64,000 nucleotides of DNA, taken from NCBI RefSeq assembly GCF_001580995.1, contig NZ_LHZU01000148.1, positions 62,001 through 126,000 of the forward strand. Reading direction: 5' to 3'. This document shows, one piece after another, positions 43,380 through 44,875 of the stretch (positions are counted from its first letter, which is position 1; each line of letters opens with the position of its first letter). The translations under genes and the position numbers were made by a program. The DNA is from Acetobacter senegalensis (GTDB taxonomy: Bacteria > Pseudomonadota > Alphaproteobacteria > Acetobacterales > Acetobacteraceae). The notes beneath the pieces were generated by a model. It was not told where the DNA came from. It did no database searches and saw only the letters and a program-made list of their open reading frames with translations.

Positions 43380-43464
43380 CTGAACAGGATGCAATGCCTG
43401 TTCTAGGCTTATCAGTCGATTTTATGGGATTTGAAGCAGCAGGAAACTGCCTGATTATGTGCTC

Positions 43465-43791
43465 TGGTGTCCGCGGCGGGATTCGAACCCACGGCCCCAG
43501 GATTCTTCCCACTTCGGTTTTCACCGCCATCTGCCGGGCAGATGCCGTTGGCAGATGTTCGTGGTCTGGACTGTCCCTTTGCCTTAGGCCACCGAAGTGG
43601 CCCGTAGGCACCGCCCGTCCAGTCTCTACACCTTCCGGCCCTGCGTGGCAGGGCTGGCTTGGCTCGGGATCGGCACGGTCCGAGTGGACCAGAGCGTTCC
43701 CCGACTTTGAGCGGATACACCATGATGTTTCCTGTCATGGCGCCCAATTGCATTAGGAATCCTGTGCTCTATCCTACTGAGCTACGCGGAC
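43465..43791 (-). tRNA. tRNA-Arg (anticodon CCT), split by a group I intron
   Basis: Exon 1 (43791-43755) and exon 2 (43504-43465) together form a 77-base cloverleaf with encoded CCA: acceptor GTCCGCG/CGCGGAC with discriminator A, D stem GCTC/GAGC, anticodon stem CAGGA/TCCTG, loop TTCCTAA (anticodon CCT), and T arm GTGGGTTCGAATCCCGC. The anticodon loop is interrupted after the third anticodon base. Self-splicing group I introns at this place in tRNA-Arg(CCU) are known in Agrobacterium, so the gene should be functional after splicing. Confidence 0.92.
43505..43754 (-). ncRNA. Group I intron (IC3-like) in the tRNA-Arg(CCT) anticodon loop
   Basis: 250 bases, no ORF. The intron begins AATGCAATTGGG on the minus strand right after exon bases CCT, whose three bases can pair with the internal guide GGG (C-G, C-G, U-G at the splice site, as in Azoarcus CAU/GUG). 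It ends in G (GGGAAG), the omega-G. The core matches the Azoarcus tRNA-Ile intron: GGTGTAGAGACTGGACG (P7 left strand, J6/7) and ACAGTCCAGACCACGAA (P7 right strand, P3-P8 junction). CCTAAGGCAAAGGG fits the P8 region. The expected folding is inferred by comparison; no folding program was run. Confidence 0.9.
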
Positions 43792-43861: not shown

Positions 43862-44875
43862 TCAACGGCGTGCGGCGCGTGCGGCTTTGGCGGCCAGCGT
43901 AGCCACATAGCGTTTACATAAAAGCTGGTCGGGCGCGCCGGTCTGTTTGCAGGCCAGTTCCAGCGCCTGTGTGTCTTCCAGGGCCTGTGTCAGGGCCGCC
44001 AGAGGCCAAAGATCAAGAGACCGACCGAATCCATTCGTCCGTTTGAAAAACACTGGCGGCCTGAGGGCTTTCATGGCGTCTGACCGACTTTCCCCCTCGG
44101 CCATGGCTGCGCGCACCCGCCGCAGGCGGTTCAGGTGGCTTAGAAACGCACGGGCTATGGTAATGGGGCTGGTACCCTCCGCCAGAGCCCGTTCAATGGC
44201 CAGATCAGCATCCGCGCGGCGACCTTCCGTGGCGGCAAAGGCGGCGTCCTCAATGGAAACGCTGCCCGCATCTCCAATGCAGGCACAGGCGTCATCCAGC
44301 GTGAGTGTGCCGGTGTCGCCCGCATACAGGGCCAGTTTTTCCACTTCGCTGCGGGCGGCCCCCCGGTCTGCACCCAGCCGGCCCATCAGCCAGTGCAGGG
44401 CGTCCGGTTCAATGCGCACCGTGTGGGCTGCCAGCATCTGGGTAATGGTGGCTTCCAGCGTGCGGCCTTCCTCCGGGTAGCAGCCAACGCTGGCGCAGTC
44501 CGGCCGTTTTTCCAGCAAGGCACGCAGTTTGGAGCGCGAGGGCAGGCTGGGCGATTCCAGAATAACCAATGTATCGGTGGGCTGTTCCAGCACGTGACTC
44601 ACAGCTTTCAGCAGTGAGTCAGAGGCATCACGCACCCGCACCACGCGGCGGCCACCCATCAGGGAAAGGGCGGTGGCTTCTTCTTCAAGTCGGTCATGGG
44701 TTTCCTTGTCCAGCACGGAAACCCGAAACGGATCATCGGTAGAGCCTGCAATCTTGCGTGTGGCATCCTGCGCGCGCTCACGGATCAGCCCGGTATCTTC
44801 TCCGTGCAACAGGATAACACGCCATGCGCCAGGGTTCTGGGTAACGCGGGGCAGGGAACGGGCATCAATCTTCAT
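43862..44875 (-). CDS. holA: DNA polymerase III subunit delta
   Basis: 337 residues. The clamp-loader subunit that opens the beta sliding clamp. The N-terminal domain carries the family signature RVILLHGEDTGLIRERAQD, then VRVRDASDSLLKAVSHVLEQ. Conserved helical segments follow (YAGDTGTLTLDDACACIGD). It resembles HolA rather than DnaX because the Walker A motif is missing. It is the last protein gene of an operon DUF3576-leuS-lptE-holA; the start lies 27 bases after the lptE stop. The intron-containing tRNA-Arg gene is next, 70 bases downstream. Confidence 0.92.
   Translation of the reverse strand: MKIDARSLPRVTQNPGAWRVILLHGEDTGLIRERAQDATRKIAGSTDDPFRVSVLDKETHDRLEEEATALSLMGGRRVVRVRDASDSLLKAVSHVLEQPTDTLVILESPSLPSRSKLRALLEKRPDCASVGCYPEEGRTLEATITQMLAAHTVRIEPDALHWLMGRLGADRGAARSEVEKLALYAGDTGTLTLDDACACIGDAGSVSIEDAAFAATEGRRADADLAIERALAEGTSPITIARAFLSHLNRLRRVRAAMAEGESRSDAMKALRPPVFFKRTNGFGRSLDLWPLAALTQALEDTQALELACKQTGAPDQLLCKRYVATLAAKAARAARR

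Follow-up and report, generated by a model that had tools for sequence, protein, structure and literature searches.

A group I intron in the tRNA-Arg(CCU) gene of Acetobacter senegalensis and its relatives in replacement tRNA genes of putative integrating elements

Results

A split tRNA-Arg(CCU) gene next to holA

The DNA analysed here, called the window, is a stretch of 64,000 nucleotides from Acetobacter senegalensis. Its tRNA-Arg(CCU) gene lies on the minus strand, in a single run of genes with the order leuS, lptE, holA, tRNA. The holA gene (DNA polymerase III delta; 43862-44875, same strand) ends 70 bp upstream of it. The 5' exon of 37 nt (43755-43791) ends in CAGGATTCCT and holds the CCU anticodon at 43757-43755. 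It is followed by an intron of 250 nt (43505-43754), which starts with AAU after exon U36 and has G as its last base, and by a 3' exon of 40 nt with an encoded CCA (43465-43504), delimited by the sequence and by ARAGORN in intron mode. In this mode, ARAGORN called tRNA-Arg(cct)i(38,250) at 43465-43791 on the minus strand, and the joined exons gave a standard 77-nt tRNA-Arg fold. The intron-split gene that the first-pass annotation had proposed at these positions was thus confirmed by program and sequence. Default ARAGORN missed it and reported only tRNA-Trp and tRNA-Gly in the window. The 327-nt RNA folded with a z-score of -4.29, and none of 100 shuffles was as low.

We found no promoter-like or terminator-like site at the locus. 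No homing endonuclease was found in the intron either, as no frame of at least 80 aa was confined to it. Frames of 83-120 aa overlapping the intron run through the exons and were judged spurious. Among the frames at the locus, two of 113-120 aa (43394-43756 and 43412-43753), one per strand, cross both tRNA and intron and look spurious; the one on the plus strand contains the translated T-arm of the tRNA (GGIRTHG).

Core, guide and covariation of the intron

As expected of a group I intron, the exon base preceding the 5' splice site is a U that forms a U.G pair with the guide, and the intron has a terminal G. The internal guide AUUGGG (43743-43748, minus strand) pairs its GGG with the CCU anticodon and places U.G at the splice site. 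As a whole it is complementary to the ligated exons, CCU followed by AAU, and its AUU can pair with the AAU of exon 2 (P10). Among 53 distinct Arg introns of the family, the guide was ATTGGG in 36 and ACTGGG in 17; the last base was G in all 53, as the extraction pattern demanded. Insertion after U36 and a GGG guide, both already noted in the first pass, were borne out by the sequence, by ARAGORN in intron mode and by these family guides.

The catalytic core from P3 to P8 (43557-43718, minus strand) matched model R1, built from 37 family sequences with the window intron among them, at 148.4 bits. The 5' strand of P7 (43620-43626, minus strand) lies inside GTGTAGAGACTG, with its last G at 43620, and in the 3' strand (43568-43573, minus strand) C43573 pairs with G43620. 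Both GTGTAGAGACT and AGTCCAG, the motifs named in the first pass, occur in the window intron and were also seen in four relatives outside the class. The core alignment covers P3 to P8 of 37 same-family sequences, including the window intron, with the pairing drawn by hand from the group I fold. It comprises 27 pairs in seven helices, the P3/P7 pseudoknot included. Standard pairs filled 99.7% of the 999 paired cells, and sliding the helix partners lowered pairing to 25.5-48.5%. Two-sided changes were observed at 12 of the 27 pairs against a shuffled mean of 4.6 (0 of 500 shuffles reached 12), and the P7 pair G43620-C43573 is A-U in 11 of the 37 sequences. P5 is a simple hairpin in the alignment; small size and no P5abc are traits of the IC3 subgroup, to which the intron probably belongs.

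The first-pass annotation had proposed the Rfam group I model RF00028 as a check. It did match the locus, albeit weakly, with 23.2 bits against a gathering score of 50 (E = 0.0011 in a search of 651 bases). At the gathering threshold, RF00028 was absent from the window, where Rfam reported tRNA-Trp and tRNA-Gly alone, and a whole-genome search with it at E ≤ 10 found nothing. The gathering score is the curators' cut-off and no structural feature. A covariance match, whose absence the first pass had named as refuting its reading, is missing at that cut-off only, and the weak score is answered by the family-built model and the covariation, which together bear out the group I assignment.

From its sequence, we read the locus, with a probability of about 0.96, as a tRNA-Arg(CCU) gene split after U36 by an inherited, ORF-less group I intron, probably of IC3 type, that is predicted to splice itself. 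In the proposed reaction, P1 would arise from pairing of the guide with the CCU of the 5' exon, and P10 from pairing of its AUU with the AAU of the 3' exon. The first attack, by a guanosine held in P7, would fall behind U36; the U36 thus released would in turn attack behind the terminal G of the intron, and exon ligation would yield tRNA-Arg(CCU). The Bartonella intron BbgpI, in the same tRNA-Arg(CCU) gene, is reported to splice in vivo and in vitro (PMC7717549).

Sole copy and decoding of AGG

A second, intact tRNA-Arg(CCU), which the first-pass annotation had named as evidence against its reading, was not found among the 41 other tRNAs found in the genome (39 plus two in the window). The 327-nt query had one match in its own genome, with the best 2 of 19 candidates scored, a search that a short leftover half could escape. 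The genome also has one tRNA-Arg(UCU), which should read AGG too, by wobble. In nine ORFs of the window, AGG accounts for two and AGA for five of 223 arginine codons. The suggestion that charging for AGG depends on an RNA enzyme was therefore overstated: tRNA-Arg(CCU) needs splicing, but since tRNA-Arg(UCU) is present and AGG is rare, the reading of AGG is probably independent of it. The same two observations would fit an insert that is a decayed intron in a pseudogene, with AGG decoded by tRNA-Arg(UCU) alone. We consider this very improbable, given that the exons yield a canonical tRNA with an encoded CCA, the core is intact and an intron of the family is kept in 22 of 22 listed Acetobacter genomes.

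Distribution and descent of the Arg intron

The whole-gene query gave a long match to tRNA plus intron in 97 of 249 family genomes (best 2 candidates per genome), and 40-nt exon matches alone in many others; an intronless tRNA-Arg(CCU) was read at six family loci. The survey counts are lower bounds, based on the best-scoring candidates of each genome. Model R1 found the intron family in at least 141 of 299 family genomes (best 10 candidates each) and matched all 22 Acetobacter genomes listed (best 20 each). In the same draw at least 107 of 150 genomes matched; every genome shown belonged to the window's family, and 23 unmatched genomes lie outside those listed. With the best seven candidates each, at least 49 of 385 genomes sampled across the class, including some of the window's family, and at least 42 of 398 sampled across the phylum had matches. 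Insertion after U36 of tRNA-Arg(CCU) also occurs in other families of the class (e.g. L139 and L140), which supports the kinship with other alphaproteobacterial tRNA-Arg(CCU) introns claimed earlier.

Of the 53 distinct family loci, 21 have holA beside the intron-bearing tRNA, within flanks of about 1.5 kb or shorter. For 21 loci from eight genera, intron distance tracks HolA distance (rho 0.763; 0 of 999 permutations). On the Arg-intron tree, the genus labels change 14 times, against a minimum of 11 and a shuffled mean of 29.9 (0 of 200 as low), and five of the 12 genera cluster no better than shuffles. We read the history of the Arg intron from these sequences as mainly vertical descent with loss. 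Of the two origins proposed at first, old vertical descent or transfer, vertical descent is supported within genus and family by the distribution and by the intron and HolA distances. In one Acetobacter genome, a partial second copy (L380, G169:C1:1816985-1817098) consists of the intron 3' part and exon 2 of tRNA-Arg(CCU), preceded by other DNA; it may be a leftover attachment site.

The intron family in other tRNA genes

Model R1 gave 187 matches in chosen loci (94 + 93); this total counts several genomes or loci twice and takes in loci from viruses and plasmids. By the flanking exon pattern, 175 were assigned to 13 isoacceptors; 11 were unassigned and one was a plasmid locus. The hosts were Leu(UAA) in 66, Arg(CCU) in 42, Lys(UUU) in 20, Leu(CAA) in 12, Thr(GGU) in 10, Arg(UCU) in eight, Ile(CAU) in six, Lys(CUU) in five and Thr(CGU) in two, with one each for Leu(CAG), Leu(UAG), Thr(UGU) and, on a viral contig, Asn(GUU). 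Five Leu(CAA) and four Ile(CAU) assignments, in which the cut follows base 33, are less certain. A tRNA-Lys(UUU) intron is present in ten named records of acetic acid bacteria, including Acetobacter peroxydans, A. sacchari, Brytella acorum, Gluconobacter sphaericus and Gluconacetobacter dulcium.

The guide follows the host: it is GGG for CCU, GCC for GGU, GTG for CAU and GGAG for most Lys introns, and GAG for the CUU shared by Leu(UAA), Arg(UCU) and Thr(UGU). With the guide anchored at the P2 loop, which dropped 18 introns lacking that loop, at least three strict pairs with the intron's own exon were formed in 131 of 153 introns. Exons of other hosts gave a mean of 37.9 and at most 53 in 500 draws. 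An unanchored version was rejected as too loose (170 of 171 with own exons versus 74.5% with foreign ones). All 17 Lys(UUU) introns with the cut at 35/36 fail under strict pairing, as the partner of U34 is a G; when U.G is allowed, all 17 form four pairs. Apart from this test, we noted that in L050, L180 and L048, in tRNA-Leu(CAA) and a tRNA-Leu(CAG)-like gene, the base before the splice site would be C and the guide has the matching G; position 33 is likewise a C in the Leu(CAG) and Leu(UAG) hosts.

A tree of 177 cores showed 38 host changes against 99.5 after shuffling (0 of 200 as low). Since host changes lie far below the shuffled value, most introns stay with their tRNA, as read from these sequences. 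In Acetobacter, the additional introns, in Lys and Thr genes, are placed with Lys or other introns, apart from the Acetobacter Arg introns, and recent copying between tRNA genes within one genome was not supported by the tree. Some placements cross hosts, such as Thr(CGU) inside the Lys introns and a viral Arg(UCU) with Leu(UAA), and many forks are weak. Such placements would be expected if the family spread by reverse splicing, with a guide matching 3-5 bases of a new anticodon loop and with reverse transcription and recombination as the next steps. One position and one guide, GAG for the common CUU, are found in the introns of Leu(UAA), Arg(UCU) and Thr(UGU) and in part of those of Lys(UUU). 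Reverse splicing is described in the Hausner review, which states that the pathway as a whole lacks direct evidence (PMC3984707). Nevertheless, the introns cluster by tRNA target, so that changes of target are rare, and we regard this route as unlikely.

One relative (L328, 3927-4225; 154.4 bits with R1) lies on plasmid pCTX-M3 in an apparently complete tRNA-Leu(UAA), about 90 bp from an AAA-family ATPase gene that adjoins aac(3)-IId. Among 72,556 plasmid records, 1262 contained a match, as did 625 of 5426 E. coli genomes; the matches listed were 49% long and about 76% identical. In the tree, the intron of L328 sits among alphaproteobacterial Leu introns, a hint of where this block of DNA came from.

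Broken native tRNA genes and intron-bearing replacements

Broken native tRNA genes and REPLACEMENTS were found in six family genomes, where a Lys, Thr or Leu gene is cut at the anticodon loop. Both halves were found in five of the six, with 7-9 bases at the loop common to the halves. The inserted DNA carries a tRNA of the same isotype with an intron in the loop, and in five of the six also an integrase gene.

The clearest layout is that of G331, whose native tRNA-Lys lies in two pieces 39 kb apart on one contig (5' piece 114897-114935, 3' piece 153920-153965). The sequence common to both pieces, ACTTTTAAT, spans the anticodon loop and extends it by a single base at either end. Within the 46 kb examined, this 9-base core was intact nowhere but at the two borders. 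The 5' piece is at its native place, as 2.8 kb of its flank match, at 73%, the flank of the tRNA-Lys gene that is intact in the window's genome. A 434-aa integrase starts about 150 bp inside the element, and an intron-bearing tRNA-Lys(UUU) (153514-153797) lies just within the other end, its loop reading ACTTT, intron, TAAT.

The other cases are similar. In G319, the pieces of the native tRNA-Thr(UGU), on two contigs, share CTTGTAA, and a 437-aa integrase lies between the 5' piece and a different, intron-bearing tRNA-Thr(UGU). The native tRNA-Thr(GGU) of G024 is also split over two contigs, with CTTGGTAA in common; the intron-bearing gene lies 107 bp in from the border, and there is a 424-aa integrase frame. 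In G209, the pieces of tRNA-Thr(GGU) are 1.5 kb apart on one contig, and the intron-bearing gene lies between them, reversed; no integrase was found in this insert. The pieces of tRNA-Leu(UAA) in G285, again on two contigs, share GACTTAAAA, and an integrase-like frame of 410 aa is directly followed by the intron-bearing gene. On its left side, G014 resembles G285, the two frames being 97% identical; a 3' piece was not found in G014.

PF00589 passed its cut-off in G331, G319 and G024; the G285 protein fell below it and passed two integrase SAM-like models. The five integrase genes fall into four lineages, 24-34% identical in alignable pairs, with two genes 97% identical. The halves formed seven of seven acceptor pairs, G-U counted, in the four cases tested. 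The short cores recur: CTTGTAA seven times in 40 kb of G319, and CTTGGTAA three times in 39 kb of G024 and three times in 4.9 kb of G209, once inside the insert. Split contigs leave misassembly possible in three cases; G331 and G209 are continuous. Thus halves, a short shared core, a host tRNA left without repair, an integrase gene and a same-isotype tRNA, the features of tRNA-dependent lysogeny, were all present in G331, G319, G024 and G285, and in part in G209, without an integrase, and G014, without a 3' half.

Whole-genome searches of 29 genomes with second-site introns found native pieces in six (Lys 1 of 4, Thr(UGU) 1 of 1, Thr(GGU) 2 of 6, Leu 2 of 18). The queries were intact tRNA genes of the window's genome, of which the Leu query is diverged, so its absences are uninformative. 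An intact copy similar to the query was absent from all 11 Lys and Thr genomes searched. In G316, G324, G331 and G079, no intact tRNA-Lys(UUU) was found, only the intron-bearing copy. A scan of 34 second-site regions located the gene in 33 (not in L402) and halves in four; L356 and L383 are the same place. L414 was rejected as a tRNA half, since the contig ends there within an intron-bearing gene, of which it holds the 5' part.

Phage Daredevil and other viral relatives

Gordonia phage Daredevil has an integrase gene and the intact loop core GACTTTTAATC, seen once in 5.2 kb where 0.0004 would be expected by composition. A tRNA-Lys(UUU) about 165 bp from this core has a 238-nt group I intron at 34/35, and default ARAGORN reported no tRNA in the stretch examined. 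According to PMC10865867, Daredevil integrates at tRNA-Lys-TTT, which is not rebuilt, has no tRNA of its own and forms clear plaques; a figure legend there names tRNA-Ile2-CAT as the site instead. The intron-bearing gene was evidently missed in the published reading. Its T-loop is ATCGAAA, which is unusual, so the predicted tRNA may be poor, and the clear plaques count against a working tRNA. The same paper speculates that a plasmid tRNA gene could be a second attB, a hazard that an intron in the core would remove (PMC10865867).

A 2014 review describes phage introns as known from protein genes only. The core pattern matched at least 120 viral stretches (L208-L327). Among 80 of these loci examined (81 matches), a strict script assigned a tRNA host in 27, with L238 and L240 doubtful; some other matches lie in a protein gene. 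Viral locus L221 (6050-7781) has an intron-bearing tRNA-Lys(CUU) and an intact loop CTCTTAA beside an integrase gene; that motif was seen once against 0.35 expected in 8.6 kb and is weak alone. In L246 (13030-13781), the genes for tRNA-Arg(UCU) and tRNA-Leu(UAA), which are some 600 bp apart, both carry family introns. Near 6999 of L214, a relative lies ahead of a 3' half that resembles tRNA-Leu, its core is separated by 323 bases from an integrase gene, and the upstream stretch reads like a putative HNH endonuclease frame within the intron.

Discussion

Bacterial tRNA group I introns have a scattered distribution. The ones read here are small and lack an evident endonuclease frame, which makes their spread and retention puzzling. 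The elements in the relatives suggest a concrete answer. The tyrosine integrase of an element would cut the host tRNA gene at the anticodon loop and so destroy it. The element would bring a replacement of the same isotype, whose loop would be protected from the integrase by the intron, and self-splicing of the replacement RNA would restore the tRNA. Decay of the element would then leave the intron-bearing tRNA as the only copy. We infer, from sequence comparison, that the intron may hide the integrase target in the replacement gene. We suggest tentatively, and with the odds somewhat against it, that small tRNA introns persist and spread without a homing endonuclease as such a mask, and that scattered intron-bearing tRNAs of alphaproteobacteria, possibly including that of the window, are fossils of this process.

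That the window intron itself derives from such an element is a guess. No trace of a tRNA-splitting element was seen at the locus, no native tRNA halves were found in the genome with the 327-nt query (best 2 of 19 candidates scored), and none of the genome's 12 PF00589 matches lies on the window's contig (C66).

The introns could instead be passengers in tRNA-splitting elements, as integrases and tRNA introns both favour anticodon loops. We give this close to an even chance and consider it at least as likely as masking. The elements were found starting from introns, so the sample is biased to intron-bearing replacements, and native halves turned up in only six of the 29 genomes searched whole. 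Anticodon-centred sites are common, with 2083 islands in Islander (PMC4383910), and actinophages appear to carry plain tRNAs (PMC10865867). On the other hand, integrase genes of four lineages, five in all, go with intron-bearing replacements of four isoacceptors, and phage Daredevil adds another intron-bearing case.

Whichever role the intron has, with these elements tRNA-dependent integration reaches beyond actinophages, into acetic acid bacteria and their relatives. Since the intron-bearing gene is the only complete tRNA-Lys(UUU) found in G316, G324, G331 and G079, the reading of AAA should depend on a ribozyme there. Default tRNA finders hide such genes, as in Daredevil.

The scheme in the relatives is that of tRNA-dependent lysogeny as described by Guerrero-Bustamante and Hatfull in 2024 (PMC10865867); it differs by the intron within the core of the replacement tRNA, and the window locus has no such features. 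The group I introns in the T-loop of tmRNA (PMC11915505) are likewise ORF-poor and in a target gene of islands, although in another RNA and another loop; the word integrase is absent from the main text of that paper. Very short inserts in other cyanobacterial tRNAs, including tRNA-Lys, have been termed group I introns (PMC5733544). They too are in the anticodon loop, but with 22-49 nt we judge them too short for a group I core.

Among tRNA introns proper, those of Azoarcus tRNA-Ile(CAU) and of cyanobacterial and plastid tRNA-Leu(UAA) are likewise small and in anticodon loops, with another tRNA and guide; two tRNA-Ile(CAU) relatives found here use the guide GTG after CAU, and many relatives lie in tRNA-Leu(UAA) at 34/35. 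The tRNA-Arg(CCU) introns of Agrobacterium, about 250 nt long, and of Bartonella (BbgpI) are in the same tRNA gene as that of the window, which adds a new genus, known here from its sequence. Paquin, Heinfling and Shub reportedly described horizontal transmission and transposition of the tRNA-Arg(CCU) intron in 1999, which may cover part of the spread to other tRNAs. In the open-licence literature, we did not find this alphaproteobacterial family reported in genes for tRNA-Lys, tRNA-Thr or tRNA-Arg(UCU), or any intron described in a replacement tRNA that an integrating element carries. According to the Asaia genome paper, Gluconacetobacter diazotrophicus has a tRNA(Arg) that is split by a group I-like sequence (PMC4596401). 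The type of intron in the window is thus already known from Agrobacterium, Bartonella and Gluconacetobacter, and the new part lies in its relatives.
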